Of a stretch of 64,000 nt of DNA, positions 26,475 to 55,063 are shown in pieces. The first letter of the stretch is position 1; every line of letters begins with the position of its first letter. Source of the DNA: Sedimentisphaerales bacterium (GTDB taxonomy: Bacteria > Planctomycetota > Phycisphaerae > Sedimentisphaerales > Anaerobacaceae); NCBI GenBank assembly GCA_016927855.1, contig JAFGLV010000031.1:1-64000 (forward strand). Direction: 5' to 3'. Under the pieces are notes generated by a model. That model made no database searches. It was not told the origin of the DNA and saw nothing but the letters and a program-made list of their open reading frames with translations. The position numbers and the translations under genes are program-made.

Positions 26475-26558
26475 TTTGTGAGCGATGGCCTGACGCGACC
26501 ATTCAGCCGATCCGGAGAGGCAGGGTGACGTGACACTTCAAACAAACATGAGGTGGTT

Positions 26559-32107: not shown

Positions 32108-32216
32108 TGCCAGGGACGCCACGACATCGCACCTTCGGAATCGTCCGCCAACGACCCTTCCCGACGCAGGGCGGGATGGAACGACGCATAGGGTTATCGA
32201 GAAAGGAGTGTGTCCG

Positions 32217-36905: not shown

Positions 36906-36935
36906 ACCGGACCGGACAGGAAAGAAAGATCAACC

Positions 36936-37748: not shown

Positions 37749-38770
37749 CCCGAGTCTATACCGAAGCCCGAGACGCCTGTTTTGAGGAATTGTTCGACAT
37801 CGCGTCGCGCGACAGAGACGTGATTCTGTTGACCGCTGACACCGGCGCCTTCGCCTTCAAGCGCTTCCGGAAGGAGCTGCCTGGTCAATTCTTCAACGTA
37901 GGCATAGCGGAGCAGAACGCGATGAGCGTCGCGGCCGGGCTCGTCCTCGGAGGCAAGAGAGTCTTCGTATTCGGCATTTCCAACTTCGTGACGCTGCGCT
38001 GTTTCGAACAGCTCAAGCTCGACATCTGTTGCATGGACCTGCCGGTGACCGTGATCGGCATGGGGACCGGTTACGTCTATCCCAAGGACGGTCCGACGCA
38101 TCACATGACCGATGTTCTGTCGCTGGTTCGGACTCTGCCTGGGCTGGAAATCTGGTCTCCCTCCGACTACTCCATCATCGCGGCCGCGGTGCGATCGGCC
38201 TATCGCAGCACCGGTCCCACTTACATCTACATGGACAAAGGGCCCTTCGACTCCATGTACGCTCCGGACGCCGATTTCTCCGAGGGTCTGGCGCTCCTCA
38301 GAGCCGGCCGGGACGTAACGCTCGTTGCCACCGGCATCATGGTTCCCCAAGCCATGCGCGTGGCGGAACAGCTATCAGAAGGAGGGATCGACGCGGCGGT
38401 GGTCGATCTCTATCGCCTCAAACCGCTCAATGTACCCCGGCTGCGGGGGCTGTTGGCCGCCAGCCGCCGGGTGGTGACGATGGAAGAGAACACCATCATC
38501 GGCGGGCTCGGAAGTCTCGTCTGCGAGGTGGTGGCGGAAGAGGGCCTTCTAACCCGGGTCAAACGCATCGGCATGCGCGATACCTACCACTGCGAAATCG
38601 GCGATCGCGAGAGCATGCGGGCCTTGGATGGGATCGATCTGAACAGCGCTACCGAGACGATTTGTCAGTGGCTCGGCACGGACGTGCCCACTTGTGCAAC
38701 GGCGCCGGTCGTGCCTGTCAAGTCTTGCTCATGCGACCGACAATGGACATCCAGCGAGGCTTCCAGATGA
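37745..38770 (+). CDS. transketolase-like C-terminal subunit, 341 aa
   Basis: The pyrimidine-binding domain has NVGIAEQNAMSVAAGLVLGG with the catalytic Glu, then KDGPTHHMTDVL, and the C-terminal transketolase domain (~190-310) is complete (VTLVATGIMVPQAMRVAEQL). The last ~25 residues are a Cys/Ser-rich tail (CATAPVVPVKSCSCDRQ) not typical of the family. ATG overlaps the N-subunit stop and the gene overlaps the aldo-keto reductase by four bases. The pair should act as one enzyme. Confidence 0.88.
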   Translation: MTRVYTEARDACFEELFDIASRDRDVILLTADTGAFAFKRFRKELPGQFFNVGIAEQNAMSVAAGLVLGGKRVFVFGISNFVTLRCFEQLKLDICCMDLPVTVIGMGTGYVYPKDGPTHHMTDVLSLVRTLPGLEIWSPSDYSIIAAAVRSAYRSTGPTYIYMDKGPFDSMYAPDADFSEGLALLRAGRDVTLVATGIMVPQAMRVAEQLSEGGIDAAVVDLYRLKPLNVPRLRGLLAASRRVVTMEENTIIGGLGSLVCEVVAEEGLLTRVKRIGMRDTYHCEIGDRESMRALDGIDLNSATETICQWLGTDVPTCATAPVVPVKSCSCDRQWTSSEASR

Positions 38771-39843
38771 ACCAGATCCGATTGGGAAAAGACGGTCCAT
38801 TCGTCTCCGCGATCGGCCAGGGCACCTGGGGCCTCGGGGGGCGTTTCACCGCCGAGACCAGCGAGGATGCCAGCGCCATCGAGGCCATCAGGATGGGGCT
38901 CGATCTGGGACTGACCTTCATCGATACGGCCGAAGCCTATGGGGCCGGTCACACCGAGACTCTGGTCGGCCAGGCCGTCCGAGGCCGGCGTTCCGAAGCC
39001 TTCATTGCCACCAAGGTTTCGCCGGAGAATCTGCGCGCGTATGACGTCGCGCAGGCAGCCGAAGGAAGCCTCAAGCGCTTGAAGACCGACTACATCGACC
39101 TCTATCAGATCCATTGGCCCAATCCGTCGATTCCTGTCGAAGAGACTCTGACGGCGCTGGAGAGGCTCGTCGAGCAAGGAAAAGTCAGGTTCATCGGCTT
39201 GAGCAACTTCAGTTGCAGGGGACTCGACGACGCATTCACCTGTGCAGTTCGCGCTCCGGTCGCCTTACAGGTCGAGTACAACCTTTTCGACAGGACCGTG
39301 GAACGTGACCTCTTGCCATCGTGCCGAAGAAACGGTGTGACGCTGATCGCCTACAGTCCGCTGGACCAGGGTAAGTCGCTCCGGCGTCGCGAACCGGATG
39401 ACGTGCTGACCGCTATCGCCGAGAAACACGGACGAACGGCGGCCCAGGTCATTCTCAACTGGCTCGCCCTCGTCCAAGGCGTGTTGCCGATTCCCAAGGC
39501 GGGCAACACGGCCCACCTCAAAGAGAACGCGGCGGCGCTGACGTTCTCTCTGGACGAGACCGATCTGGCCGCGATCGACGGTGCGTTTACACCCGAACCG
39601 CAAGCCATCCCCGCAGCGCAGATTCACGCCGATAGAAACGGCTTGGATTGTTTCGTGCCCGGTCCGGCAGAACTGGCCCGGCAGATTGTGGGTGGAGAGA
39701 CGATCAAACCTGTTCGTGTCGTTGCTTCTGCAGAAGACCCAAGCCGATTCGATCTGGTCGAAGGCAAGCTCCGCTACTGGGCCTGGATCGAAGCTTTCGG
39801 CGCCGAGAATCCGGTCCCAGCCCTTATCAGGCAGCCGGCGTGA
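38767..39843 (+). CDS. aldo/keto reductase fused to a ParB-like domain, 358 aa
   Basis: Residues 1-275 are an aldo/keto reductase: the tetrad is seen as Asp and Tyr in FIDTAEAYGAGHTE, Lys in FIATKVSPE and His in LYQIHWP. The C-terminal ~80 residues differ. IPAAQIHADRNG, IVGGETIKPVRVV and FDLVEGKLRYWAWIEAFG follow the ParB/sulfiredoxin-fold pattern, with a GxxRxxA-like element. It could be a sugar ketone reductase with an added NTP or CTP-binding domain. ATG 38767 overlaps the previous stop. Confidence 0.8.
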   Translation: MNQIRLGKDGPFVSAIGQGTWGLGGRFTAETSEDASAIEAIRMGLDLGLTFIDTAEAYGAGHTETLVGQAVRGRRSEAFIATKVSPENLRAYDVAQAAEGSLKRLKTDYIDLYQIHWPNPSIPVEETLTALERLVEQGKVRFIGLSNFSCRGLDDAFTCAVRAPVALQVEYNLFDRTVERDLLPSCRRNGVTLIAYSPLDQGKSLRRREPDDVLTAIAEKHGRTAAQVILNWLALVQGVLPIPKAGNTAHLKENAAALTFSLDETDLAAIDGAFTPEPQAIPAAQIHADRNGLDCFVPGPAELARQIVGGETIKPVRVVASAEDPSRFDLVEGKLRYWAWIEAFGAENPVPALIRQPA

Positions 39844-39856
39844 CAAGGAGATAGTC

Positions 39857-40618
39857 ATGTTAGATCAAATCGACCAGCAAGAACTCTACGCCAGCGCCGA
39901 AGAGACGGACCTCCGTGCGGCCTTCGCGCGTCATTTTCGCGACTGTCCCATCCCCGACGCGGACATCCTCAACAACCTCGGCCTGTTTCTGAACTCCAAG
40001 AACCTCTCCCGCATCCTCTGCATGGACCATCTCTACCAGCAGATCGTGGATGTCATGGGTGTCGTGATGGAGCTCGGCACGCGCTGGGGCCAGAACGCGT
40101 CTTTGTTTGCCGCCTTGCGGGGAATCTACGAACCCTTCAATCGCCACCGCAAGATCGTTGCGTTCGACACCTTCACTGGTTTCCCCTCCGTGCACGAGAA
40201 GGACAATCTCGGCTGTGATGTAATTCGAGCGGGTGGGCTAGCGACGACCGACGGTTATGACAAGTACCTTGAACGCGTGATGCAGTTTCAGGAGGCCGAC
40301 AATCCGCTGTCGCATATCTGCAAGTTCGAGATCCGCAAAGGCGACGCGACGACGGAGATCGAACGCTATCTGGACGAGCGCCCCGAGACGATCGTCGCGC
40401 TGGCCTATTTCGACTTCGACATCTACGAACCGACGCGCAAGTGCCTGCAGGCGATTCGGGGTCGGCTTGTTAAAGGCAGCGTTCTGGCGTTCGATGAACT
40501 GAACGACCCCGATTCACCGGGAGAGACCGCAGCTCTGATGGAGGTCTTCGGCCTGCCAAACGTCCGACTCAAACGCTATCGCTACGCCTCGCGCGTATCG
40601 TACTTCGTCGTGGAGTAG
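39857..40618 (+). CDS. TylF/CmcI-like methyltransferase, paralog of the 36135 gene, 253 aa
   Basis: Clearly homologous to the protein at 36135-36905. It shares LLNNLGLFLxSKNLSRxL, an ELGTRWGQNASLFAALRG SAM motif, EPFNRHRKIVAFDTFTGF and YFDFDIYEPT. The blocks diverge at the loop around residues 110-130. A good AAGGAG site precedes the ATG. The two genes look like a tandem duplication that has been separated by the transketolase and reductase genes. They may methylate different positions. Confidence 0.8.
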   Translation: MLDQIDQQELYASAEETDLRAAFARHFRDCPIPDADILNNLGLFLNSKNLSRILCMDHLYQQIVDVMGVVMELGTRWGQNASLFAALRGIYEPFNRHRKIVAFDTFTGFPSVHEKDNLGCDVIRAGGLATTDGYDKYLERVMQFQEADNPLSHICKFEIRKGDATTEIERYLDERPETIVALAYFDFDIYEPTRKCLQAIRGRLVKGSVLAFDELNDPDSPGETAALMEVFGLPNVRLKRYRYASRVSYFVVE

Positions 40619-40665
40619 GCGTATTCACGCCGCTAGCGCCGTTTCAAGGGAATGAACCGACAAGC

Positions 40666-41388
40666 ATGAACGATCAGATGCGCATCACGGATGAGAATGG
40701 CGTGGAAAGGGACTTCTTCTTCGAGGTCTCCAAGTACTCCGGCTATCTCTGGCGCTCTCACATCGAGAGGCACCTGGCCATCTATGAACTGTACCGCAAG
40801 ACGTGCGAGCTGCCGGGCAGCATCGTGGAGTTTGGTGTCTTCAACGGTTCGACGTATTTCTTCCTGGCGCGGCTCCTGGAGATCTTCAACCGTCCGAGTT
40901 TTGAGAAGTACGGCAGTTGTGCTCATCATCTCTACGGCTTTGACACGTTCGAGGGTATCGTCGAACTGGACCAACGCGACGAGACCGTACTGGGCGCTTC
41001 CCAGCGGAAGGTCGGAGGATTCGCGCAGGACCCGGCCCGTTTCCTCAGCGATCTCGAACGCTTCAAGCAGGCCAATGCCGCGTTGCGCGAGCGCCTGCAC
41101 GTCGTCAAGGGAGACGTCTGCGACACCTTCCCGGCGTTTCTCACAGACAACCCGGGGGTGCGGTTTCGCTTCGTGCTTCTGGACATGGACATCTTCAAGC
41201 CCACCGACGTCGTGCTGCAAGCGATTTACGACTACATGGTGCCCGGTGGGATCATTGGCTTCGATGAATACGGCTTTCCCGAGTGGCCCGGTGAGACCGC
41301 TGCCGTCGATCGATTCCTCAAGAAGCACAACCTGAAACCTCAGTCGATTCCGTGGGCATTTGCGCCGTCGGCTTATTGCATCGTGTAA
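40666..41388 (+). CDS. TylF-like methyltransferase, 240 aa
   Basis: The motif IVEFGVFNGSTYFFLARLLE, the block HHLYGFDTFEGIVELDQRD and the LLDMDIFKPTDVVLQAI / GIIGFDEYGFPEWPGETAAV blocks place it in the TylF/CmcI group. It is more distant from the other two than they are from each other. The N-terminal ~35 residues differ (ENGVERDFFFEVSKYSGYLW). An O-methyltransferase for a sugar is the best guess. Confidence 0.75.
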   Translation: MNDQMRITDENGVERDFFFEVSKYSGYLWRSHIERHLAIYELYRKTCELPGSIVEFGVFNGSTYFFLARLLEIFNRPSFEKYGSCAHHLYGFDTFEGIVELDQRDETVLGASQRKVGGFAQDPARFLSDLERFKQANAALRERLHVVKGDVCDTFPAFLTDNPGVRFRFVLLDMDIFKPTDVVLQAIYDYMVPGGIIGFDEYGFPEWPGETAAVDRFLKKHNLKPQSIPWAFAPSAYCIV

Positions 41389-41411
41389 CCCTTGGGCATG
41401 GAGGTCTCAGA

Positions 41412-42407
41412 GTGATCGACCAGGAAATACTACGACAATTCAACGGGCGTCGCGCTCTTGTCACGGGCGGCACCGGACTGATCGGACGTCAGGTGGTGAA
41501 GATGCTCTGCGATGCCGGCGCAGAGGTGAGCATCGTGTCGCTGGATCGCGTGAGGGTCAGCGACCGGGCCGAGCACATCTTCGGTGACCTGACCAACTTC
41601 GAGTTCTGCAAGGACGTCACGTATGGGATGGACTGCGTCTGCCATCTGGCCGGCATCAAAGGGTCGGCAGCCGTATCGACCAGCATGGTCGCAAGCCACT
41701 TTGTCCCGACGCTGATGATGAACACCAACGTGCTCGAGGCCTGCCTGGTCAACGACATCCCGAAAGTCGTTTACACCAGTTCGATCGGCGCCTATGCCAG
41801 CACTGACATTTTCCGGGAAGCGGACTACCGTCTGGACAGCCTGCCGATGGATTTCGCCGGCTGGGCCAAGCGCGTCGCAGAACTGCAGATCCAGGCCTAC
41901 CACACCCAGTACGGGCGCCGCAGCTTCGCCATCGTCAGACCTAGCAACGTCTACGGCCCAGGCGACAATTTCGACCCGCAGAACGCGATGGTCATTCCTT
42001 CCCTGATGTACCGCATCCGGCGGGGCGAGGACCCGCTGCGCGTATGGGGCGACGGTTCGGCAGTCCGCGATTTCGTGTTCAGCCGCGACGTGGCCGAAGG
42101 CGTACTACTGGCTCTCCATCACGGCACCGAAGGGGGATTCGTCAATCTCGGCAGCGGACGGGAATGCACCATTCGCCAGCTCGTCGAGACCCTGAATCAG
42201 TTCCTGGATTTCCGCTACGAGTTCGACGCGAGCAAGCCTTCTGGCTACCCCAAGCGCCTGATGGACATCGAAAGGGCTCGAGAACTGATCGGATACGACC
42301 CGTCCACGAGCCTGCTGGACGGCCTCCAAGAGACCTGGGCCTGGTACCTGGAACACGAAGGTGAACATGAGTGCAAGAAGAACTATTTTGCCGAGGCGGT
42401 GAAATGA
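41412..42407 (+). CDS. NAD-dependent epimerase/dehydratase family, 331 aa
   Basis: The Rossmann motif ALVTGGTGLIGRQVV is intact and YTSSIGAYAS supplies the Ser region. The YxxxK element is altered: AGWAKRVAELQ has Ala at the Tyr position while Lys remains. FVFSRDVAEGVLLALHHGTE and LGSGRECTIRQLVETL are normal family blocks. GTG 41412 is chosen because GGAGG lies seven bases upstream. The enzyme may use another acid/base residue or may be a reductase/epimerase of the GDP-fucose-synthase type. It overlaps the next gene by four bases. Confidence 0.75.
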   Translation: MIDQEILRQFNGRRALVTGGTGLIGRQVVKMLCDAGAEVSIVSLDRVRVSDRAEHIFGDLTNFEFCKDVTYGMDCVCHLAGIKGSAAVSTSMVASHFVPTLMMNTNVLEACLVNDIPKVVYTSSIGAYASTDIFREADYRLDSLPMDFAGWAKRVAELQIQAYHTQYGRRSFAIVRPSNVYGPGDNFDPQNAMVIPSLMYRIRRGEDPLRVWGDGSAVRDFVFSRDVAEGVLLALHHGTEGGFVNLGSGRECTIRQLVETLNQFLDFRYEFDASKPSGYPKRLMDIERARELIGYDPSTSLLDGLQETWAWYLEHEGEHECKKNYFAEAVK

Positions 42408-42946
42408 GCAACTCCCGTCCGACCATGGAAGTCACGCAGACCGATCTGCCGGGCGTTCTGCTCATCCGGCCTCCGACGATCTTCGAGGATTTCCGCGGCA
42501 CCTATGTGGAGACCTACAACGAGCGGTTGTACCGCGACAACGGCATCGACGTGACCTTCGTTCAGGACGACATATCGGTTTCGAGCCGGCACGTGCTGCG
42601 TGGCCTCCACGGCGACGCCGAGACCTGGAAGCTTGTCTCGTGCCTGCAGGGCACGTTCTATCTGGTCGTTCTGAACGCTGCCCAAGAGTCGAACGTGTAC
42701 GGCCGCTGGCAGGGCTTTACCCTCTCGGAGCACAACCGGCTCCAGGTCTTGATCCCGCCCAGACATGGCAATGGGCACGTGGTCATGAGCGAGCGCGCCA
42801 TCTTTCACTACAAGCAATCGACGTACTACAACCCGAAAGGCCAATTCACCATCGTCTGGAACGACCCGAAATTCAATCTCTGGTGGCCGGTGAAGCAGCC
42901 CATCGTCTCACGCAGGGACGAAGTCGGCCATTTCATGCAGACGTAG
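42404..42946 (+). CDS. RmlC-like nucleotide-sugar epimerase (cupin), 180 aa
   Basis: A small cupin with the family signature HVLRGLHGD and the beta strands LVSCLQGTFYLVVLN, FTLSEHNRLQVLIPPRHGNG. RmlC epimerises C3 and C5 of 4-keto-6-deoxy sugars. It lies between two short-chain dehydrogenase-type enzymes, so it may act on the keto product of the dehydratase, as the epimerases of heptose pathways in Campylobacter do. The substrate nucleotide (GDP or dTDP) is not visible. ATG 42404 overlaps the previous stop. Confidence 0.8.
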   Translation: MSNSRPTMEVTQTDLPGVLLIRPPTIFEDFRGTYVETYNERLYRDNGIDVTFVQDDISVSSRHVLRGLHGDAETWKLVSCLQGTFYLVVLNAAQESNVYGRWQGFTLSEHNRLQVLIPPRHGNGHVVMSERAIFHYKQSTYYNPKGQFTIVWNDPKFNLWWPVKQPIVSRRDEVGHFMQT

Positions 42947-42958
42947 AGACGACGACAC

Positions 42959-44509
42959 ATGAAGGTCCTGTTTGTCATCAAAGAAATCGATTTTGCCGAC
43001 CACATCGCGGTCCCGTACCTGTCAGCCGTGGCCAAGGAATTGGGGTGGGAGACGAACCTCTGTATTCTGGACCAGACGGACCTGATGCGGGCGGTTCATC
43101 GCGAGCGGCCCGACGTCGTGGCTTATTCGGCCAACGTGATGAGCTTCGAGGCGCTGACGGCGGCGCACCGAGAAGCACAGAGTGAATTCGCGTTCATCTC
43201 GATCATGGGCGGACCCCATCCGACGTTCAGCCCTGAGACATTTGCGTCGGCCGGCGTCGATGCGTTCTGCGCGGGAGAAGGGGAGTTGGTCTTCCGCGAT
43301 TTCCTACGGCGCATCGAGCAGGGGCGATCCTTTGACGATGTGCCGAATCTGATCACCGCCAAGGGTCGCAACGAGGTGCGTCCGTTGGTTGACTGTCTGG
43401 ATGAGTTGCCGTTTCCCGATCGTGACATTACCCTCGCCGACACCTTCTTAAAGGACACGCCCAAGAAGACGTTCTACGCTACGCGAGGATGCCCCTTCAG
43501 TTGCAGCTACTGCTGCAACAACTACTACAAGAAGCTCTATCGAGGCAAGGGGCGCATCGCCAGACGTTTCTCGGTCGAACGCGTGATTCGAGAGATCGAA
43601 TTCGTGCGCGACCGCTATCGCATGGATTTCGTCAAGTTCGGCGACGATCTTTTCGCCATGAAGGCGGACGATTGGTTGGAAGAGTTCGCACGGGAGTATG
43701 CTGGTCGCATTGGCATACCTTTCAACTGCTACCTGCGTTTGGATCGAGTGGACGCCGATTTGCTGCGCCTGCTGAAACAGGCGGGCTGCTATTCCGTTCA
43801 CCTCTCCGTGGACAGCACCTCCGAAGTCGTCAGAGAGAAGGTGCTGGGCCGACGCATGCGCCAGATCGACATCGTCGAAACGTTGCGCCTGATCCACAGT
43901 TTCGGCATCAATACATGGGTCAACTACATGCTCGCGGCCCCCGGATCCACGCTGGCGGACGACCTGGGTACGATCGCTTTGAACAAGAAGGCCCACGTGA
44001 CTTATCCGGCCTACAGCACCACGGTTCCGGTGAAAGGCACCGCGCTGTATGACTACAGCCTGCAGCGAGGTCTGATCGATCCGGACGGCCCCATCAACGG
44101 CCTGGCTGGTTGCAGTCAAATCTCTACGCTCCGCGGATGGTCCCTGCGCGAGAGACAGATCCGATACAACATCTTCCTTGTCGGAGCCGTTATCGCCAAG
44201 CTGCCTTTTCCCCTGGATTGGCTGGCGACGCAGATGATCAAGGTGGTGCCTCCCAACCGCGTGTTCGTTAAATTGCGTCAAGTCTACTACCGCTATTCCA
44301 TCGAGAACCGAATCTTCAATCTGTACCGCTACGGACGGCCAGCGCTCGTCAAGGTCAAGGCGGCTGTCTGTGATCGGAGAGAAGACCCACCGTCAGCGCG
44401 GCAACCGCTTGCGTGCCGGCAAGGAATCATGCCACTGCCTGGTCGGGAATCGTCACACGGCCGCACAGTCGAGAGAGTGTTATGTTCCAAGGAAAACGAG
44501 TGCTTGTGA
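42959..44509 (+). CDS. B12-binding-type radical SAM enzyme, 516 aa
   Basis: The N-terminal ~130 residues form a Rossmann-like domain of the cobalamin-binding class (SIMGGPHPTFSPETFA; the usual DxHxxG cobalamin His motif is not obvious). The radical SAM motif CPFSCSYC has Cys 178, 182 and 185. A C-terminal helical region extends to ~450, and the last ~40 residues are disordered. Such enzymes methylate unactivated carbons or rearrange sugars. The gene overlaps the next one by 28 bases. A C-methylated or otherwise unusual sugar is plausible. Confidence 0.8.
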   Translation: MKVLFVIKEIDFADHIAVPYLSAVAKELGWETNLCILDQTDLMRAVHRERPDVVAYSANVMSFEALTAAHREAQSEFAFISIMGGPHPTFSPETFASAGVDAFCAGEGELVFRDFLRRIEQGRSFDDVPNLITAKGRNEVRPLVDCLDELPFPDRDITLADTFLKDTPKKTFYATRGCPFSCSYCCNNYYKKLYRGKGRIARRFSVERVIREIEFVRDRYRMDFVKFGDDLFAMKADDWLEEFAREYAGRIGIPFNCYLRLDRVDADLLRLLKQAGCYSVHLSVDSTSEVVREKVLGRRMRQIDIVETLRLIHSFGINTWVNYMLAAPGSTLADDLGTIALNKKAHVTYPAYSTTVPVKGTALYDYSLQRGLIDPDGPINGLAGCSQISTLRGWSLRERQIRYNIFLVGAVIAKLPFPLDWLATQMIKVVPPNRVFVKLRQVYYRYSIENRIFNLYRYGRPALVKVKAAVCDRREDPPSARQPLACRQGIMPLPGRESSHGRTVERVLCSKENECL

Positions 44510-45432
44510 CCGGCGGTGCCGGCTTCGTGGGAGCGAATCTGGTCCGGCGCCTGTCGGATCTGGGCGCCGACGTTCGCGCCACACTTCACGTCAAGGACGC
44601 GGTGATCGCAGACGAACGGGTTGACTATGTCCGATGCGATCTGACCAGGGCCGAGGATTGCGCCAGCGTGTGCCAGGGCGTGGACTACGTGTTTCTGTGT
44701 GCGGCCGTGACCGCCGGAGCAGGCATGATGGAGAGCAAGCCCCTTTTCTTGCTGACGCCGAACGTCATGATGAGCATGCTCATGCTCGAAGCCGCCTACG
44801 AGGCTAAGGTCAAGAAGGTGCTCTTCATCAGCAGCAACACCGTATACCCCGTGACGGACCATCCGGTCAAGGAAGACGAAGTGACCGGTGAGTTCTTCGA
44901 GAAGTACTTCATCGCCGGCTGGCTCAAGCGCTTCTGCGAAGCCACCTGCGAGATGTACGCCACGAAGATCAAGGACCCGATGAAGGTGGTGGTGGTCCGG
45001 CCGGCCAATATCTACGGTCCTTACGATGATTTCGAATGGGCCACCAGTCACGTCCTGCCGGCGCTGATCCGGCGCGTGGTGGAACGCCACGACCCGATTC
45101 AGGTCTGGGGAGACGGACAAGACATCAAGGACTTCATCTACGTGGAAGACTTTGTCGCAGGTATGCTGCTGGCCATGGAGAAGATCGATACCTTCGAACA
45201 CATCAACCTGGCCAGCGGCAGAGAGCATCGTCTCTGTGACATGCTGGAGTTGATCCTCGAGCTTGACGGGTACACCGATGCGCGCATCGAGTACGACGTG
45301 ACCAAGCCGACCATGATTCCGAAACGCCTGATCGATCCGGCCAAGGCGCAACGCTTGTTGGGTTTCCAGGCCACCACACCTATCGAGACCGGCATGCAGA
45401 AAACCCTCGACTGGTACAGGAGCACCTTATGA
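44482..45432 (+). CDS. NAD-dependent epimerase/dehydratase family, 316 aa
   Basis: VLVTGGAGFVGANLVRRL at the N-terminus and FISSNTVYPVTDHPVKEDEV give the nucleotide and Ser motifs. The YxxxK segment reads AGWLKRFCEATCEMY, again with Ala where Tyr is usual, as in the protein at 41412. VVVVRPANIYGPYDDFEWAT and KDFIYVEDFVAGMLLAME are the usual blocks. Both proteins may form a heteromeric or sequential pair. It begins inside the radical SAM gene and overlaps the kinase gene by four bases. Confidence 0.75.
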   Translation: MFQGKRVLVTGGAGFVGANLVRRLSDLGADVRATLHVKDAVIADERVDYVRCDLTRAEDCASVCQGVDYVFLCAAVTAGAGMMESKPLFLLTPNVMMSMLMLEAAYEAKVKKVLFISSNTVYPVTDHPVKEDEVTGEFFEKYFIAGWLKRFCEATCEMYATKIKDPMKVVVVRPANIYGPYDDFEWATSHVLPALIRRVVERHDPIQVWGDGQDIKDFIYVEDFVAGMLLAMEKIDTFEHINLASGREHRLCDMLELILELDGYTDARIEYDVTKPTMIPKRLIDPAKAQRLLGFQATTPIETGMQKTLDWYRSTL

Positions 45433-46562
45433 TCGTCACCCATACCTCCTCGAAAACCTCGTTGTGTGATCTCGACGCGGACCGCCAACTCGGCGCTGAG
45501 ACCGGTCTGGCGGAGCTGCGCAGCGAAAGCGGGGACGCGATCGAGAGCCGCCGCATCGTGGCGGGTCACCCGATGATTATCACCCGAACGCCTTTTCGGA
45601 TTTCCTTCTTTGGCGGTGGGTCGGACTATCCGGTCTACTATCGAGAGCACGGTGGTCAGGTACTGAACACGACGATCAACCAATACTGCTATATCACCTG
45701 CCGCTACCTGCCTCCGTTCTTCGACTACAAGTACCGCATCCGCTACTCCAAGAGCGAGCTGACCAACACCATCGACGAGATCGAACATCCCTCGGTTCGG
45801 GAGTGTTTGCGTTTCAGCGGCATCGAGCACGGCGTCGAGATTGTTCATACCAGCGATATCCCCGCCATGTCCGGCATCGGGTCCAGCTCGTCCTTCACCG
45901 TGGGTTTGTTGCAGGCGCTTTATGCCCTCAAGGGAGAGATGGTCACCAAGCGACGACTGGCTCTGGATGCGATCAACATCGAGCAGAACATCATCGGTGA
46001 GAACGTCGGCTCTCAGGATCAGACGGCCGCGGCCTTCGGCGGTTTCAATCACATCGAGTTCGGAGGAAGGAACGACGGCATTTTTGTCCAGCCGGTGGTC
46101 CTGCCGCCAGAGAAACTGGGTTACCTTCAGGACAATCTGCTGTTCTATTTCACCGGGTTCAGCCGGTATTCCTCCGAGATTGCCACGGAACAAATCCGCA
46201 ACACACCCAAGAAGATACCGGAGCTCACGCGCATGCGGGACATGGTGCCCGAGGCGCTGGATATCCTGAAAGGGCCGGTCGAAGGTTATCATCAATTTGG
46301 GCGGCTCTTGCAGGAGTCGTGGGTGCTCAAGAGGCAGTTGACGGCACTCGTCTCCAACCCCACCATCGATGCCATTTACGATACGGCGGTCCGAGCCGGC
46401 GCGCTGGGGGGCAAGCTCTGCGGCGCCGGCGGTGGGGGGTTCTTTCTCTTCTTCGTTCCGCCGGAGAAGCAGCGCCAGGTCAAACACGCTCTGCGACGCC
46501 TCCTGCTGGTGCCGATGAGGTTCGAGAACCTGGCGTCGCATATCGTCTTCTATGTCAACTGA
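45429..46562 (+). CDS. hddA: GHMP kinase, HddA-like (heptose-7-phosphate kinase type), 377 aa
   Basis: The substrate motif RTPFRISFFGGGSDYPVYYR is that of D-glycero-D-manno-heptose 7-phosphate kinases. The ATP loop is IPAMSGIGSSSSFTVGLLQA and the C-terminal GGKLCGAGGGGFFLFF is motif 3. ATG 45429 overlaps the previous stop; the conserved core begins at 45573, so the first 48 residues are an extension or a wrong start. It would make a sugar-1-phosphate for the HddC-like enzyme upstream. Heptose is the likely substrate, fucose/arabinose-type sugars a possibility. Confidence 0.78.
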   Translation: MIVTHTSSKTSLCDLDADRQLGAETGLAELRSESGDAIESRRIVAGHPMIITRTPFRISFFGGGSDYPVYYREHGGQVLNTTINQYCYITCRYLPPFFDYKYRIRYSKSELTNTIDEIEHPSVRECLRFSGIEHGVEIVHTSDIPAMSGIGSSSSFTVGLLQALYALKGEMVTKRRLALDAINIEQNIIGENVGSQDQTAAAFGGFNHIEFGGRNDGIFVQPVVLPPEKLGYLQDNLLFYFTGFSRYSSEIATEQIRNTPKKIPELTRMRDMVPEALDILKGPVEGYHQFGRLLQESWVLKRQLTALVSNPTIDAIYDTAVRAGALGGKLCGAGGGGFFLFFVPPEKQRQVKHALRRLLLVPMRFENLASHIVFYVN

Positions 46563-46615: not shown

Positions 46616-49600
46616 ATGCCAACGAAGCCAAGGACGCCGCTGTTTTCCGTTTACTCGGTTATCAAGAACGTTGCGAACCGCGAACGGATGTTCCGGCGAT
46701 CCATCGAAAGCGTCCTCGGTCAGACGTTCACCGATTTCGAGTACGTGATCCAGGACGGTGGATCCACGGACCAGACGGCTCAGATCATCGCCGAATACGC
46801 CGATCCGCGCATTCAGTTCCTTTCCGTTCCCGATTCCTGCGGGGAAGAAGGGTTCTTCCGCGTCCTGAAGCGCTGTCGAGGCAAGTACATCGGCTCATGC
46901 CTGTCCGATGAAGAGCTGTTCCCGGACGCGCTGGAGAGCGCACGCCGGGCCTTTGAAGATCACCCGAACATCGCCGCCTTCTACGGCAATGTCAGCTATG
47001 TCAACGAGGATGGACAGAAGTGGGGACCCCGCGTGCCGCCGCATCCGTTCTCTCTCGAAGCGTATGTGTGCCAGGACCTGGTTCCGCCTTTCTGCTCGTC
47101 GTTCTTTCGGCGCCAGGCTATCGAGAAGGCGGGATTGCACGACCACCACTGGCGTTATGGCATAGGAGAGTTCGAGTTTTGGATTCGAATTGCTGGCGTG
47201 GGTGAGATCATCTACCTGCCATTGGACGTCACCTACTACGGCCGGCATGCGCAGTCCAATACACGCAGCGTGGGAATCTACGATCAGTTGACGGTCGAGC
47301 GCGAGCGCGTCATGCCCGACTTGTTTCGCGAGAACAGAGTTCTGCGCGAGTGCCATGTCACTGTCGAGCAAGCGATTGCCGCCAACTACGTCTGGGCTGC
47401 CCGGGGAGTATTCAATCTTGAAGGCGGGTCGGCGAAGTGCAAGTATTTCATGCAACAGGCCGCGCGGCATGACCCGGACAGTCCTCAGTTAGCGCGGTTG
47501 AAGACCCAGTTACGCGGAAAGAACTCCACGCCGTCGGCGAACGAGGTTCCTTCGTCCGTCGTCCGCACGACACCTTCGACGGCTCCGACGCAGGAATTCG
47601 CACGTTGGCTCAAAGTCCTGTCTGCCATGGACAACCGGCTGTACTACCGCGATCAGTCCCCTCAGACCTTGGCGGCGTTGTGGTCTCTAGCTCGCGATTT
47701 CGATCCGACCGTGATTGTCGAGCTGGGCACGCTCGGAGGGCTGTCCCTGCGCACCTGGCTGGCGGCCACCGAACGGGCCAGAGTTGTAGCCATCGATCTG
47801 AGTTTCACCAAGCTTGCGCAGACGCGTCGCCTTCTGCCTGCGGATCTGTCCCGTGTCACCCTTCTGGAGCAGGATATCCTGAAGACCGACTTCGCGTCCC
47901 GATGGACCGCCCAGGATCGGGTGGTGCTCTTTGTGGATGCGCACGATCTGCCCCACGTGCCGATCATGGAGCATGTGCTTGCTCACGCTCTGCCGGCGCT
48001 GCCCGACGGCAGCTTGGTCATTGTGGACGACCTGTGGTTCAGCGAGCAAAGACTGACGCACGATAGTGCGAGAGCCTTTCTGGAGAGCCGCGTCGTCGGG
48101 GAGATCGACGAACTCCAGTGCTTCAACGGGCACTACGCGCCTTACCACGAACGCGGGTCATTCATGGGCTTTGCCGAGGTGATCCCGCTGCTGGATTTCG
48201 TCAACCGATATGGCGTCACGCTTGTCTACGAGCAGAGGGGTAAACACGCACACTTCACCTGGAGCCGAGACTACCTTTCACGGAACCGGGCAGATCTTCG
48301 GGAGAGCCCGGCCGAACGTAACGGATGGCGCGGCGCCGTCTTGTACAATCCGCTGGAATCCGTACCTGTGTCTGGCCCGCTACGCGAGACGATGCGTTGC
48401 CTCGCGGCGACCTACTCGCAGGGCAAGACCAAACAAGTGGCCGAGCACCTCCAGCAGCTTCTCTCGCAACACCCACACGACCAAGGGGTGGGGTTTGCCT
48501 TTGCTGTCTGTCTGGCCAAACTGGGCTTGCTTTCGCAGGCGAGAGACGTTCTTGCCGCCGGTGCGATGGAGCCCAACCCTCCGCGGTACCAGCGGCTCCT
48601 TGATGACCTCACCGCGCGGGTCGAACCACCCGCTTCACCCCAGCCGGAGGACGAGGACGGCCTGACCATCTTTGCTCTGCCCAAACCCTTTGACGGCGAC
48701 ATTGGCACCATTCAGAAAAATGCGATTCGGAGCTGGGCGCGACTCAGGCCCAGGCCTGAGATCATTCTCTTCGGCGACGAGGCCGGGACCCGACAAATGG
48801 CGGAAGAGGTCGGCGCGCAGCATATTCGCGGGATCGAACGCAATGAGTTCGGCACACCGCTGGTCGACAAGCTGTTTCAGGCGGCCCAGGACCACGCTTC
48901 ACACAGTGTCGTTGCCTATGTGAACGCCGACATGATCCTCTTCCAGGACTTTGTCGAAGCCGCACGAAGAGTGCGAGCCGAGCTGTCGGACTTCCTGCTG
49001 ATCGGTCAACGCTGGGACCTTCCGCTTCTTGATGAAATCGATTTCGACCGATCCGACTGGCAGGCAGCGCTCCAGAGGCAGATGCAGGAGCATGCCATGA
49101 TTCACCCCGAGTCGGGCCTGGACTATTTTGTCTTTCGCAAGGGACTGTGGCCCACGATTCCGCCATTTGCGCTGGGACGGACCGTCTGGGACAACTGGCT
49201 GGTCATGGACCCCAATCAGCGCGGCATTCCCGTCGTCGACGGCACGGAGTATGTCACGGCGGTGCACCAGGATCACGACTATGCACACATGACCGGCGGG
49301 CGAGAGGAGGCCTGGAAAGGCACCGAAGCGACGCGAAACCGCGCGCTGGCCGGCAAGACGGACCGTTCCGGGCGAACGTCCGGCGCCACGTGGATCCTCA
49401 AGAGCGACGGGAAACTGGTAAAGGCCGAGCCGCGGGGATCCTGGTGCGACACCGTGGTGTACAAAGACCAGAGGAGCGTTTGGCTGCTGGAGCACGCCAA
49501 CAGGCTGCTGGCCCTTGACAAGCACGCACTGGCAGCCAGCAAGTGCGAAGAAGCGCTGGTGCTGATGCATGCCCTGCTTCGTCGCGCCCGGCGCACGCGC

Positions 49601-52600
49601 CGTCCGGACAATGACCAGGATCATACGCTTCTCGCGCAGCGATACGTGAGCTGCCACATGCTGCTGGCCCAGTGCTGTCTGAAGATGGGACGCTACGATC
49701 GAGTCACCGCAGTCTATACGCAGCTCTTGGAGAATTCCCTGGTCCACATCCCGCAGTCCATGCGCGATGATGTTACGCGACTGCGCGATCGGTTCCTCCG
49801 CCTGTCGTCGTTGCAACCGTCGGTGCCTCCGCCCGTCGCAGAGCGCGAAACCGAGACACGTCCCCAGCACCGTCACGACGGTACTCCTGCAGGCGATGCA
49901 TCGATTCGCTGCCACTCATCCTCGGGCGGCGCGCGCCACGTGGCCCCGAAGGTGTCGGTCATTCTGGCCTGTCACGATGCGCAGGAGTTCCTTCCGGAGT
50001 GTCTCGACAGCATCCTCGCGCAAACCATGTCGGACTGGGAATTGCACGTTCTCGACGACGGCAGCGCCGACGGGACGCGGCGCATCATTGCGGACTATGC
50101 CGGTCGCGATGAGCGGATCATCCCTTACTACTTCGATGACAACGCTGGCCCGTACGTCCGACGCAACCGTGCCATCGAGCGCGCCGGCGCGCCCTTTATC
50201 GTGATCCAGGACGCCGATGACCTCATGTGCCCGAACAAGCTCGAGCGATTGCATCGAGCCATCACGCAGGATGAACGTCTCGGGGTCGTTGGCTCGTTCT
50301 ACCGGATGTTCCTCGACCGGTACCAGGGGCCGGATCACACCGAGGACGTGATACTTACGACCACGCACGAACAGATTCTCGAGGACTATCGCAACGGCGG
50401 GATATGCGACTATGCCTGGCACGGTTCCGCCATCATCCGCAAGCGTCTGTTCGAAGACATTGGTCCCTATGACGAGAATCCTTTCAGTTCGGATTCGTTC
50501 TGGTTGGCCAAGGTGGCCGAGTACGCCAGCCGCAGCGACGAGCTTCGGTTGAAGAACATCCCTGAATTTCTCACGTTGCGGCGCATGCGTGCCGACTCGC
50601 AAACCGGCAGTTTACCTTCATTCGATCCTCGCGGTCGCCGGGCTAGATTCAGGGAGTATCGCAGGAGCAGACTGTCGGAGGTGATACAGAAGCTCGATGC
50701 CGATCCGACGGTTGATGTCAAAGCAGAATTGCGCAAAAGCGTCTGCGGCGACTTCATCCAGAGGCACGAGCATCTCTTCAAGGACTGGGAGAGCCAGCCG
50801 CTGACCGCGCGCATCGTGGGCCAGTTCATGGCCAGAATCTACTCGCAGTTCGGCACGGGACAACTCGTCCGCTGCATCAATACGTGCGGCATCGTCGAAC
50901 GCCTGGCGTCAGGAATCGCGCAGACGGTGCGGGCCTACGATCTCGTGAGGGGCCTGGCCTATTTCGCCTTGGGGCTGCCGGACAAGAGCCGACTCTACTT
51001 GGAGCGTGAGGCTCAGACACACGGTACGGAAGTGGCGCGCGCGTTCTGCGTGCGCCACCTGGATCGATACGATCCTCAATGGACCCGCGCGGACCGTATC
51101 GCCATGGTGCGAGACGCGCTGTTCGGCGCCGAACCGTTCGGGCGGTCGGCCGGGGCCGAGTCTGCCATGCTCAGGTGCGTCGCTGACCGCCGCTCTCGTC
51201 ACGCGACGCCTCTGTCCATTGTTGTGCCGTGCGGGGTCGTGCCGTCGGGGTGGAGCCAACAGGTAGCGGCGCTGAACGCTCAGACCGATAAGGGTTTCGA
51301 GGTGATCGTACTGGGACGCGACCCCGACTCCAGCGATGTTTCAAGCCTGCTCCAGGACGCGGATTTCGACTACGTCGTACTCGAGGCCGGAGAGGAACTC
51401 AGCCCGTGGCGCCAGAGAAATGCCGCGGTCGCGCATGCCAGAGGTTCGCATGTCGCGTTTCTGGGGGAATGGGTGGTTCCCGAGCCGGAATTCGTGCAGC
51501 GAGTCGTCCGGCGTTTTGAGGCCGAGGACATTAACGGGTTGCGCGGCCGGATTCTCTCGGACGGCGCGATGCCGGTATGCTTCGACCTCGGGTCGGAGAC
51601 CTTGTGCGCCGCGTGCGATGCCGACGAAATGTGCGTCTTCCCCAAGGACGTCTTCACTTTGCTGGGCGGATTTGCCGAGACGCCGTTCATGCGGGGGGCG
51701 TTCCAACTGTCGTACCGGATCTACACCGGCGCAGAAATACCCGCTCGGCCGATTCTCTATTGTCCCGAGGTCGTCGCCCGATACATCGGTCCGCGACAGG
51801 AGCGCGAACGCCTGGTCGACCGCTCTTCCCTGGAGAATCACTTCTGCATCGACTACCTCAAGCGGGCCGGCCTCCTCCAGAATGGCGACATCTACCTCAC
51901 TATGACTTTCTTCGGGTTTGTTTCGGGCCTCTATTGCCTCTCGGACCAAGCCGATGAGCGACACTTCGAGCATTTGTTGGACAACTGCCTGTTCTTCGGC
52001 AGGCGCTTTCCGCGGGTGGCGGTGGAGCGCGCCGAGGCGGCGCTGGCGTACCGGCCGGATTCCCTGGTCGCCCGGCATATCGCGGCATCGCTGTATGCCA
52101 GGCTCGATCAGCCCGGGCACGCGTGCAGGCTGCTTGAAGAAGCCCTATCGCCGCTGGAGGGACTCCTCGCATTGGGGCGGATCGATCGTGCCAGGTCGGA
52201 GTTCACCAACTACACCGACGTCTGTGAATGCTACGTGGGCGGTTGCACGCTTTTGGCTCAATGCTATCTGAAGGTGGGGCGTCACGACAAAGTCGTCGCG
52301 GTCTATACGCGTCTTTTGGAGAACCCGCACGTCCAAGTCTCCGAGAGCCAGAGAAAGGACATGGAGCGCGTGCGCGACCGACTGCTGGGTATGTTGGACG
52401 CGACGCTGCCGGTGCCTCGGTCTGTCGCACCTCGAGACGCGATGAACCGCAGCGCCACGTGCGAGCCGCCGACGGAAACCATATCGCGCCGACCGGACGA
52501 GGTCCCCACCGCATCGCCGCCCGACCGAGCAGAGCCGCTTGCTGTTTCCGAAGCCGCAGATGTGCATGCAGAGGCAGTGGCGAAGCTCGAGGCCAGGTAC

Positions 52601-55063
52601 GCGTCCATGGCTGGCAACGCACCAGCCAAGCATGTCACGGCGGTTCGGCTGTCCGAGATCTGTCGTAGAGCAGGCAGGACTGACAAGGCGAGCACGTTTG
52701 CCCTCCACGCGCGAAAGATCAAGAACCTTGAGGCGTTCACACGGGCCAGGCAACACAAGCCACACGAGTGCGTCCACAAACCGATGATTGTGGAATTCAA
52801 CGTCATCGGGCGGTGCACCGCCGGCTGCATCATGTGCAACTACGGACCTCACGGGGACGTCCTGGACTTGAACCGTTTCAAGTATCTTGCCGACGACCTG
52901 CTTCCTGCGGCGCAGAAAGTCCTGTTGATAGGAGGAGAGGTGTTGCTTCACCCCGATTTCTACCAGATGTCGGAGTATGCCAGCCGCTTCGGCGTTCATC
53001 TGGAGATGACGACCAATTTGTGTTCTCTTGCAGGCGATCGAGCCGAAGCGGTGGAACGCTTCTTTGGTTCTGTCAAAGTCTCCCTTGATGCGGCGACCAA
53101 ACAGACGTACGAATCGATACGAACGCACCTGAGTTTTGACCGTCTTCAAGAGAACCTCGAGCGACTGGCCCAGATCAAACGGCGTCGTGATGGCCTGAGA
53201 CTCCAATTGGCGTTTGTCGCCATGGAGCGCAATGTCGCCGAGCTGCCGGATACGATCGAGATGGTGGCGCGATTCGGTTTCGACAGCGTGGCCGTCAGCT
53301 TCGTACACGTCGATGGCCGGCTGACGCTCGACGATTCCCTGCTCTTCCACCGGGAACTGGCCAATCGCTGCTTCGATCAGGCTCGACGCAAGGCGCAGGC
53401 GTTGGGAGTGCGACTGGAGATTCCCAACAACTTCGATGTGAGCAGGAAGCCATATATCACTCCTGAGAGGCCGACCGAGGGACACAGACAGTGCCTCAGA
53501 CCCTGGCAGAGGATCAGGGTACTTCTCAACGGTGACATCGTACCTTGCTGTCGCCTTTACCGCCTGCGCATGGGCAATGCGTTAACGGAGCCGTTCGAGC
53601 AGACGTGGAACGGCTCGAAGTACCAAGACCTCAGAGAGGCGATAGCCACCGGCAGCGAGCGCATGCCTGCGGAATGTAAACACTGCGAGCTGATAACAGG
53701 GCCCACTGACTCCAATGATGCACTGCTGCACATCAATCTGAGACATCTGGCGGATCTCAGGCAACGCCTCGCCGCGGCGGCCATTGTGCCGCGAACCCAT
53801 GTCGCTGTCGGTACACCAGGCGTCGGCGGCGCCCCGAAGGTCACAGTGGTCACCGCCTGTCACAACTGCGAGTGTTTTCTGGTGGAGTCCCTCGAGAGTG
53901 TTCGCCGGCAGAGCCTGCAAGACTGGGAGTTGTACCTGCTCGATGATGCCAGCACCGACGGTACGCGACCGATCATTGAGGAATACGTGCGGCGCGATGC
54001 TCGGATCAAGCCATTCTATTTCGATACGAACGCCGGACCCTACGTCCGCCGGAACTTCGCCATCGAGCGCGCCGGCTCCGACTTCATCGTCATCCATGAT
54101 TCCGACGACCTCATGGAGGCGACGAAGCTGGAGCGCCTATATGACGAGATCAGCAAGGATAGCCGTCTGGCGATGGTCGGATCCTTCTACCGTACTTTCT
54201 TCGAGGAGTTCAAGGGCATTCAGTATACCGATCCCATCGAGCTGCCGGTCGAACACGAGCAAATCGCCAAGCAGGCGGCTTCGTGGCGGCACGGGATCAG
54301 CCACATCTCTGCGATCATTCGCAAGTCGATGTTCGAGCGCATCGGAGGCTACGACGAGAATCCCTTTGCGTCCGACGCCTTCTGGTCGGCCAAACTCGCC
54401 GAGCTGTCCCGGCACGATCCGAGCGTGCGTTTCAAGAACATCGCCGAGTTCCTGACCCTATACCGCGTCCACAGCGTCAGTCAGACGCAGGTTCTCTCCA
54501 CCTTCGACCCGCGTAACCGCCGGATTCGTTACCGCAGCTACGGTGACTGCAAGCTGGAGCGAATTCGCGAGGAGATGCGCACCGTCCCAGGGACGGACAT
54601 CGAGCGGGAACTGCGCGCGTGCAATTGCTCCGACTTTCTGACGCGCTTCAAGGCCCACATCATCAAGTGGGAAAACGAACCGCTGGACCCGCGCGTGCTC
54701 GAGAGCCTGCTGCAACACGCCGTCGGCGCGTTCAACGCCGGCGGCTATGTCAGTTGCGTCAACATCCTCAACGGCGTTGAGATGATGGAGCCGGCGCTGT
54801 CGAAGCGTATCGTCGGCTTCGACCTGCTTCGAGGTATGGCCTTCTACGCCCTGGACGTCAGAGAGCGGTCGCTGGCGTCTCTGGAGCGAGAGATCGACCA
54901 TCATGACAGCCCGGCCGCACGGCAGTTCAAGGCCGATGCGTTCGAGCACCAGGGCAACCTCGATGTGCTGGCGTGGTGTGACGAGAATGCCGGTCGGTAC
55001 AATCTGGAACTGAATGCTGCCGAGGAGGCGGCACCCCTCTGCGTGGGAGCCGCTCGAAAATAG
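46616..55063 (+). CDS. giant multidomain glycosyltransferase/methyltransferase/radical SAM protein, 2,815 aa
   Basis: A single uninterrupted frame. Domains in order: GT2 (~8-230, DGGSTDQT at 47); class I methyltransferase-like (~325-560, VIVELGTLGG from 366); TPR (~595-650); GT-A-like transferase (~680-885, NADM around 770-773); TPR (~960-1050); GT2 (~1110-1330, DADD at 1199-1202); helical module (~1337-1500); degenerate GT2 (~1529-1758); TPR (~1789-1909); radical SAM (Cys 2067, 2071, 2074) with SPASM-like Cys (2293, 2311, 2312, 2354, 2357); GT2 (~2408-2622, DSDD at 2495-2498); a second helical module (~2625-2800). No signal peptide or membrane segment. ATG 46616 is chosen over 46598. It lies between the kinase and fliD. 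It probably assembles or attaches a complex glycan. Confidence 0.85.
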   Translation: MPTKPRTPLFSVYSVIKNVANRERMFRRSIESVLGQTFTDFEYVIQDGGSTDQTAQIIAEYADPRIQFLSVPDSCGEEGFFRVLKRCRGKYIGSCLSDEELFPDALESARRAFEDHPNIAAFYGNVSYVNEDGQKWGPRVPPHPFSLEAYVCQDLVPPFCSSFFRRQAIEKAGLHDHHWRYGIGEFEFWIRIAGVGEIIYLPLDVTYYGRHAQSNTRSVGIYDQLTVERERVMPDLFRENRVLRECHVTVEQAIAANYVWAARGVFNLEGGSAKCKYFMQQAARHDPDSPQLARLKTQLRGKNSTPSANEVPSSVVRTTPSTAPTQEFARWLKVLSAMDNRLYYRDQSPQTLAALWSLARDFDPTVIVELGTLGGLSLRTWLAATERARVVAIDLSFTKLAQTRRLLPADLSRVTLLEQDILKTDFASRWTAQDRVVLFVDAHDLPHVPIMEHVLAHALPALPDGSLVIVDDLWFSEQRLTHDSARAFLESRVVGEIDELQCFNGHYAPYHERGSFMGFAEVIPLLDFVNRYGVTLVYEQRGKHAHFTWSRDYLSRNRADLRESPAERNGWRGAVLYNPLESVPVSGPLRETMRCLAATYSQGKTKQVAEHLQQLLSQHPHDQGVGFAFAVCLAKLGLLSQARDVLAAGAMEPNPPRYQRLLDDLTARVEPPASPQPEDEDGLTIFALPKPFDGDIGTIQKNAIRSWARLRPRPEIILFGDEAGTRQMAEEVGAQHIRGIERNEFGTPLVDKLFQAAQDHASHSVVAYVNADMILFQDFVEAARRVRAELSDFLLIGQRWDLPLLDEIDFDRSDWQAALQRQMQEHAMIHPESGLDYFVFRKGLWPTIPPFALGRTVWDNWLVMDPNQRGIPVVDGTEYVTAVHQDHDYAHMTGGREEAWKGTEATRNRALAGKTDRSGRTSGATWILKSDGKLVKAEPRGSWCDTVVYKDQRSVWLLEHANRLLALDKHALAASKCEEALVLMHALLRRARRTRRPDNDQDHTLLAQRYVSCHMLLAQCCLKMGRYDRVTAVYTQLLENSLVHIPQSMRDDVTRLRDRFLRLSSLQPSVPPPVAERETETRPQHRHDGTPAGDASIRCHSSSGGARHVAPKVSVILACHDAQEFLPECLDSILAQTMSDWELHVLDDGSADGTRRIIADYAGRDERIIPYYFDDNAGPYVRRNRAIERAGAPFIVIQDADDLMCPNKLERLHRAITQDERLGVVGSFYRMFLDRYQGPDHTEDVILTTTHEQILEDYRNGGICDYAWHGSAIIRKRLFEDIGPYDENPFSSDSFWLAKVAEYASRSDELRLKNIPEFLTLRRMRADSQTGSLPSFDPRGRRARFREYRRSRLSEVIQKLDADPTVDVKAELRKSVCGDFIQRHEHLFKDWESQPLTARIVGQFMARIYSQFGTGQLVRCINTCGIVERLASGIAQTVRAYDLVRGLAYFALGLPDKSRLYLEREAQTHGTEVARAFCVRHLDRYDPQWTRADRIAMVRDALFGAEPFGRSAGAESAMLRCVADRRSRHATPLSIVVPCGVVPSGWSQQVAALNAQTDKGFEVIVLGRDPDSSDVSSLLQDADFDYVVLEAGEELSPWRQRNAAVAHARGSHVAFLGEWVVPEPEFVQRVVRRFEAEDINGLRGRILSDGAMPVCFDLGSETLCAACDADEMCVFPKDVFTLLGGFAETPFMRGAFQLSYRIYTGAEIPARPILYCPEVVARYIGPRQERERLVDRSSLENHFCIDYLKRAGLLQNGDIYLTMTFFGFVSGLYCLSDQADERHFEHLLDNCLFFGRRFPRVAVERAEAALAYRPDSLVARHIAASLYARLDQPGHACRLLEEALSPLEGLLALGRIDRARSEFTNYTDVCECYVGGCTLLAQCYLKVGRHDKVVAVYTRLLENPHVQVSESQRKDMERVRDRLLGMLDATLPVPRSVAPRDAMNRSATCEPPTETISRRPDEVPTASPPDRAEPLAVSEAADVHAEAVAKLEARYASMAGNAPAKHVTAVRLSEICRRAGRTDKASTFALHARKIKNLEAFTRARQHKPHECVHKPMIVEFNVIGRCTAGCIMCNYGPHGDVLDLNRFKYLADDLLPAAQKVLLIGGEVLLHPDFYQMSEYASRFGVHLEMTTNLCSLAGDRAEAVERFFGSVKVSLDAATKQTYESIRTHLSFDRLQENLERLAQIKRRRDGLRLQLAFVAMERNVAELPDTIEMVARFGFDSVAVSFVHVDGRLTLDDSLLFHRELANRCFDQARRKAQALGVRLEIPNNFDVSRKPYITPERPTEGHRQCLRPWQRIRVLLNGDIVPCCRLYRLRMGNALTEPFEQTWNGSKYQDLREAIATGSERMPAECKHCELITGPTDSNDALLHINLRHLADLRQRLAAAAIVPRTHVAVGTPGVGGAPKVTVVTACHNCECFLVESLESVRRQSLQDWELYLLDDASTDGTRPIIEEYVRRDARIKPFYFDTNAGPYVRRNFAIERAGSDFIVIHDSDDLMEATKLERLYDEISKDSRLAMVGSFYRTFFEEFKGIQYTDPIELPVEHEQIAKQAASWRHGISHISAIIRKSMFERIGGYDENPFASDAFWSAKLAELSRHDPSVRFKNIAEFLTLYRVHSVSQTQVLSTFDPRNRRIRYRSYGDCKLERIREEMRTVPGTDIERELRACNCSDFLTRFKAHIIKWENEPLDPRVLESLLQHAVGAFNAGGYVSCVNILNGVEMMEPALSKRIVGFDLLRGMAFYALDVRERSLASLEREIDHHDSPAARQFKADAFEHQGNLDVLAWCDENAGRYNLELNAAEEAAPLCVGAARK

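Follow-up and report, generated by a model that had tools for sequence, protein, structure and literature searches.

The available part of one study describes flagellin glycosylation as a stepwise cytoplasmic process that is independent of an oligosaccharyltransferase (PMC7591256). Its subject, Caulobacter FlmG, is like the protein described here in being a modular cytoplasmic flagellin O-glycosyltransferase (FlmG has an N-terminal flagellin-binding domain); unlike it, FlmG uses pseudaminic acid and is not an array in the part of that text available (PMC7591256). The C. difficile type B flagellin glycosyltransferase GT2, which carries PF00535 and PF08241, has been proposed both to add and to methylate rhamnose on flagellin, so that, like the present protein, it joins a PF00535 glycosyltransferase to a methylating activity in one polypeptide; in contrast, the accessible part of that paper mentions one glycosyltransferase and one methyltransferase domain and neither TPRs nor a radical SAM domain (PMC5207246). 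In P. aeruginosa FgtA (PA1091) a GT2 domain that serves flagellin is fused to a second glycan-building activity, a phosphotransferase, but the portion of its description at hand mentions no array of several glycosyltransferases and does not contain the term "radical" (PMC11833859). Flagellin glycosylation islands with fused glycosyltransferases, including glycosyltransferase-methyltransferase fusions, are a kind of locus that is already known. What looks new in the gene analyzed here is its scale and its built-in radical SAM domain. In the open-licence literature no paper was found that treats flagellin (glycosylation), radical SAM and glycosyltransferases jointly, and, as far as titles and the openings of abstracts go, that literature describes neither the size, nor the glycosyltransferase array, nor the fused radical SAM domain.

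The window (the whole 64,000-nucleotide stretch that was analyzed, positions 1–64000 of contig C75) belongs to a draft genome, apparently that of a planctomycete, of 5.34 Mb in 180 contigs that is estimated to be 87% complete. The giant gene occupies positions 46616–55063 (+), from an ATG at 46616 to a stop at 55063, and encodes 2,815 amino acids (318.6 kDa) with no internal stop, so the uninterrupted frame of 2,815 residues claimed in the sequence-only reading of this DNA is borne out. The GC content at each codon position stays fairly uniform over the length of the gene. A longer mechanical ORF of 2,914 amino acids begins at a GTG at 46319; we prefer the ATG at 46616 because the longer frame runs into the kinase gene at 45429–46562, while an in-frame ATG 21 bases upstream of 46616 is a start that we do not exclude. 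A hydropathy scan in 19-residue windows reached a maximum of 1.55, with none above 1.6, and this lack of any membrane-like segment fits a soluble protein.

Pfam was scored on the whole giant protein and again on separate segments. The whole protein gives Glycos_transf_2 at residues 16–167, 1114–1282, 1548–1639 and 2410–2576, Radical_SAM and SPASM above cut-off, and TPRs between the modules, as had been read from the translation. The first glycosyltransferase domain, GTa (residues 1–250; 46616–47365, +), scores 64.2 bits with PF00535 when residues 1–320 are taken as the segment. GTc (residues 1106–1528; 49931–51199, +) and GTe (residues 2402–2815; 53819–55060, +) both have helical tails and score 107.3 and 106.5 bits, respectively; they are internal duplicates with 46% identity over 371 residues. 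All three combine a PF00535 score above cut-off with a DxD-type metal motif that is kept in the family alignment, although that of GTa (D98) reads SDE rather than DxD. The DADD and DSDD metal sites of the earlier reading are indeed present, within residues 1106–1400 of GTc and 2402–2664 of GTe. The third Pfam match, GTd (residues 1528–1770; 51197–51925, +), is a divergent GT2 domain that exceeds its cut-off by only 0.7 bits (24.0 against 23.3) and lacks the DxD, no metal motif being present in any of five aligned copies. The earlier count of four GT2-like domains thus holds as four Pfam matches, the third of which is barely above cut-off and has no metal motif. The helical linkers include TPR helices at residues 590–675 (48383–48640, +; TPR_19), TPR-like helices at residues 936–1090 (49421–49885, +), and TPR helices at residues 1771–1940 (51926–52435, +; TPR_14, 27.9 bits with a cut-off of 23.5). 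Residues 967–1077 and 1830–1940 are a second pair of internal duplicates, with 42% identity over 111 residues.

Two further modules are less easily recognized. MT (residues 326–590; 47591–48385, +) is O-methyltransferase-like; Methyltransf_24 gives 25.0 bits within the whole protein and 27.9 bits when the segment is scored alone, on either side of the 26.3-bit cut-off, and there is a weak RMNT_CmcI match. The next, GTx (residues 672–935; 48629–49420, +), has no match in Pfam or among PDB sequences, but a strand in it is followed by an NxD motif, and all 16 copies aligned keep both the N and the D of this motif. Foldseek with an AlphaFold2 model of residues 326–1090 (13 sequences, pLDDT 76.6) listed many O-methyltransferases, including MycF, as well as the GT-A enzymes SunS and chondroitin polymerase K4CP. 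Because the TM-scores are low, the model is multi-domain and the query ranges are not given, the division of these matches between MT and GTx is our inference. The methyltransferase fold proposed earlier finds O-methyltransferases in this list on its side, together with a profile score at the edge of its cut-off. Comparing the profile of GTx with that of the GT2 domains from the same protein family gave no significant match (probability 1.4%, E 0.037), even though the NAD of GTx was aligned to the DAD of those domains; this does not make GTx a GT2 relative, nor does GTx qualify as a member of PF00535. Weighing the Foldseek GT-A matches and the NxD against this result, we regard GTx as probably a fifth, GT-A-like domain. 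Chondroitin polymerase K4CP, the described enzyme among these matches that also has several GT-A domains per chain, differs in that it polymerizes a free polysaccharide, and polymerases of this type are not known to have a methyltransferase or radical SAM domain.

Residues 2049–2372 (52760–53731, +) form a radical SAM/SPASM domain, with scores above cut-off for PF04055 (41.2 bits) and PF13186 (50.3 bits) when residues 1985–2372 are scored as a segment. Its CxxxCxxC lies at residues 2067–2074 and its SPASM cysteines are residues 2293, 2311, 2312, 2354 and 2357, in agreement with the core and extra C-terminal cysteines noted earlier; all of these are invariant across four aligned sequences. The nearest PDB sequences are the radical SAM enzymes BlsE, DesII and BtrN, stand-alone antibiotic or deoxysugar enzymes that act on sugars or aminocyclitols. 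These matches (E 1e-4 to 1e-2) are too weak for a reaction to be transferred from them, and we treat the similarity as a lead to the possible radical chemistry. The predicted structure of the GTd-TPR-radical SAM portion (pLDDT 50.5) is too poor for use.

Related genomes of the family contain the same architecture. G002 and G004 have homologous single frames of 3,559 and 4,014 amino acids, respectively, with the modules of the window's protein in the same order and with extra modules too, and in G003 the modules lie in two contig-end fragments; the union of modules in one polypeptide is therefore real. The additions are a second GTc copy before GTe, in G004 also an extra glycosyltransferase-like stretch, and in both G002 and G004 an insert of about 290 residues after GTa. 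This last module, seen as residues 375–665 of the L042 giant (the L024 protein) and as the matching L045 insert, has a GGVWCGGTA...H...D pattern and by eye only is transglutaminase-like; Pfam gives no match to its L024 copy.

The radical SAM profile falls within a giant frame in four of 89 family genomes (G000, G002, G003 and G004, in two genera); G079 and G000 also have weaker matches, which stand alone. At E ≤ 1e-40 it finds a giant frame in the same four of 161 genomes of the order (two genera), and in a sample of 392 genomes from the phylum the window's own genome is the only one with the giant form. Three other phylum genomes match the profile, with E values from 1e-41 to 1e-43, in frames of 401, 403 and 767 amino acids; the longest of these (763 amino acids by a second count; G428, locus L055, outside the family) is not another glycosyltransferase fusion, as Pfam gives only Radical_SAM and SPASM. 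The union of domains that the sequence-only reading considered new is thus new within the genomes searched. Arrays in G001, G006 and five genomes of genus g40 (G072, G073, G075, G076 and G080) have GTx and MT, and GTe as well except in the G075 frame, and no radical SAM match was found in these genomes. Some relatives have the modules divided over neighbouring genes: those of G019 (L036, L064), G032 (L039), G034 (L040) and G036 (L066) are distributed among two to four adjoining genes that end at fliD, and these gene sets amount to a naturally occurring divided form of the giant. Searching named genomes with the giant protein alone found no relative; a three-sequence alignment, with two peptide patterns that both come from outside the radical SAM domain, found relatives in 11 records, of which 10 are planctomycete (mostly labelled Phycisphaerae or Phycisphaerales, one Sedimentisphaerales) and one is Desulfovibrio. 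In the latter (Desulfovibrio sp. UBA6079, L051) two adjacent multi-domain glycosyltransferase frames of 1,800 and 2,421 amino acids contain GTx, MT and GT2 segments that resemble those of the window, and separate radical SAM genes lie nearby, whose domains are distant from the window's (22–23% identity, E about 1e-5). No single known giant family was found to cover the giant protein, an outcome that had been named as one that would overturn the earlier reading: no one Pfam model spans it above cut-off, those that match being domain-sized (19 listed), and none of the best 25 of 49 NCBIfam matches exceeds its own cut-off.

Codon comparison of the window with G002 and G004, in which GTa is 74% and 71% identical, respectively, to that of the window, shows more change at third than at first and second positions in all ten segments, with a small excess in residues 936–1090. 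In these comparisons synonymous change is saturated or nearly so, and for the radical SAM domain no value could be computed; residues 936–1090 are weakly constrained, with dN/dS of 0.59 and 0.35. Within genus g2 dN/dS is 0.09–0.45. These values indicate that the giant gene is under purifying selection.

The giant gene is the last gene of a sugar-nucleotide island (32079–45432, +, followed by the kinase gene) that lies between a flgL-like gene (Flagellin_N; 26553–27746, +), which is the island's upstream edge, and fliD (filament cap, PF07195 and PF02465; 55181–57205, +). Glycosyltransferases and a TPR protein are encoded between the flgL-like gene and the nucleotide-sugar dehydrogenase. The island itself encodes that dehydrogenase, methyltransferases, a guanylyltransferase-like NTP-transferase, a GDP-mannose-dehydratase-like protein, a split transketolase, an aldo-keto reductase, an SDR epimerase-like protein, an RmlC-like protein, a B12-binding radical SAM protein and a GDP-fucose-synthase-like protein. 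The immediate upstream neighbour of the giant gene encodes an HddA-like GHMP sugar kinase (45429–46562, +), whose homologue is directly 5' of the giant in G002, in G003 and, within a longer frame, in G004; that frame (L045:6842–9946) has 1,035 amino acids, of which the first approximately 780 have no Pfam match. Strong homologues of the B12-binding radical SAM protein (42959–44509) are neighbours of the giant in both G002 and G003, and the transketolase, which is encoded as two genes here (36936–38770), is split in those two genomes as well. The dehydrogenase passes its subfamily cut-off (342.5 against 189.8). A GDP-6-deoxy-heptose pathway (HddA, HddC, dehydratase, MlghB/C type) does not reach the equivalog cut-offs; because HddA (141.9 of 600 bits), HddC (141.3 of 300) and the dehydratase gmd (167.2 of 415) all score far below them, this pathway is a lead and not an identification of the island. 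RmlC, at 149.2 of 155.75 bits, is also below its cut-off. GTx homologues occur as open frames of 273–464 amino acids in other Phycisphaerae-level relatives (L085–L094). A nucleotide-sugar dehydrogenase gene is near GTx in the window and in L036, L040, L065, L074 (G001), L085, L086, L087 and L089, and none is within view in L088 and L090–L094; we take this tie as a lead.

The fliD gene starts 117 bases 3' of the giant gene, and flhB and fliR lie beyond it on the opposite strand (convergent); upstream of the island are flgE/F/G-like genes, flgA, flgI, flgK and the flgL-like gene. The genetic link to flagellar genes that is looked for in a flagellin glycosyltransferase is therefore present. The order kinase-giant-fliD-flhB recurs in G002 and G004. 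Among the 23 family genomes that match the giant protein at E ≤ 1e-40 (fliD was not a criterion in choosing them), the array protein adjoins fliD in 19, which represent ten genera; measured between open frames and read by hand, 17 of the distances are less than 200 bases and the other two are 674 and 1,216 bases. Adjacency was not seen in G003, G045, G035 and G071. In G003 and G045 a contig end falls within the matching frame or right next to it (the fliD side is out of view in G003), the remaining 2.7 kb in G035 has no fliD match, and in G071 one contig ends while on the other (C246) the gene after that of a GTa-like protein is an SDR gene instead of fliD. In G019, G032, G034 and G036 the neighbour of fliD is another array gene, not the one for the GTx protein. 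An array that runs into a fliD match also occurs in a different family of this order (G499, L089). Apart from the flgL-like gene, the genome has one flagellin-like gene (269 amino acids, 19 kb downstream, at C75:73980–74789). The Maf glycosyltransferase model PF01973 has no match in the genome; this model is labelled MptE-like and its controls matched in four archaea only, so it may miss bacterial Maf proteins.

We propose, with a probability of roughly 60%, that the giant protein is a soluble cytoplasmic O-glycan assembly line for flagellin or for another filament protein, for example FliD. Its TPR helices would hold the acceptor; the flagellin-binding domain of FlmG is a TPR domain. The glycosyltransferase domains would then attach sugars sequentially from nucleotide sugars supplied by the neighbouring genes, the MT domain would O-methylate one sugar, and the radical SAM/SPASM domain would make a radical edit of a chain sugar, for example a dehydrogenation, epimerization, dehydration or decarboxylation. 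Covalent tethering might channel the intermediates, and the finished filament subunit would be exported after completion of the glycan. The absence of a metal motif from GTd and the status of GTx as no more than a probable glycosyltransferase count against this reading. A radical SAM step would not be general, because that domain is present in only three of the 19 fliD-adjacent cases (G000, G002 and G004) and absent from the other 16. The earlier idea of a machine that builds and modifies a glycan on a filament protein is favored by fliD next to the giant gene, by the sugar island before it and by the 19 of 23 genomes; its description as self-contained is not supported, since sugar-making enzymes, further glycosyltransferases and methyltransferases are encoded by neighbouring genes, one GT2 domain lacks its metal motif, and relatives have the modules in separate genes.

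The chance that the giant gene is an artefact of assembly or of a frameshift that fused separate genes is vanishingly small. The genome is a draft in 180 contigs and some relatives do carry the modules as separate genes, but the fused order is identical in the independent assemblies of G002 and G004 and selection has acted along the entire gene; since separate genomes share the fused order, the G003 contig-end fragments included, we reject an accident of assembly. It is rather unlikely, although by no means negligible, that the giant protein builds a non-flagellar polysaccharide (LPS, capsule or S-layer glycan) and that its position beside fliD reflects operon history. The island could feed LPS or another surface polysaccharide; moreover, the top NCBIfam matches are the polysaccharide glycosyltransferases TuaG and EpsE (below cut-off, best 25 of 49), no flagellar genes were recognized in L085, L086 and L087, where standalone GTx homologues have a nucleotide-sugar dehydrogenase as their neighbour, and the Desulfovibrio relatives in L051 have no fliD match. 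Adjacency to fliD across ten genera and the lack of a membrane-like segment both argue for the flagellar alternative.

Two other readings accept the flagellar setting and differ on what the domains do. The radical SAM domain might modify the flagellin peptide itself by an amino-acid change while the remaining domains glycosylate it, which we consider doubtful: many SPASM proteins are peptide-modifying enzymes, and mycofactocin-type and putative metalloenzyme maturase models score here, albeit below cut-off (NCBIfam, best 25 of 49), but the domain is flanked by modules for glycan building, and BlsE, DesII and BtrN are what it weakly matches in the PDB. We think it quite improbable that the protein is a flagellar glycosyltransferase some of whose domains do not work, fusion having left GTd, and perhaps the radical SAM domain too, as relics with a structural or regulatory role. 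GTd, with no metal motif, is the least conserved of the glycosyltransferase, methyltransferase and radical SAM modules (44% and 41% identity to G002 and G004, respectively), and most relatives have no radical SAM domain; against a relic, however, the cluster cysteines of that domain are all kept, its identity across genera (62%) is above that of GTd or GTe, and within genus g2 it is 93–94% identical with dN/dS of 0.11–0.14.

In the described examples compared here, flagellin glycans are made by separate enzymes or small fusions, whereas the giant protein joins many steps covalently and includes a domain for radical chemistry. It is conceivable, though we put it forward only tentatively and at somewhat less than even odds, that one polypeptide both assembles a protein-bound glycan and afterwards edits it with its radical SAM domain, and that among the relatives the modules have been shuffled, duplicated and split to alter the flagellar glycan. 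Such a tethered assembly line would have a logic comparable to that of modular synthases, and if the preferred reading, of a glycan assembly line for a filament protein, is true, it includes a radical SAM enzyme whose substrate is a protein-linked glycan. A tethered array of this sort would offer a modular scaffold for protein glycosylation, and with the split, extended and duplicated versions in the relatives one could test whether it is tethering that determines a glycan's order on a protein.
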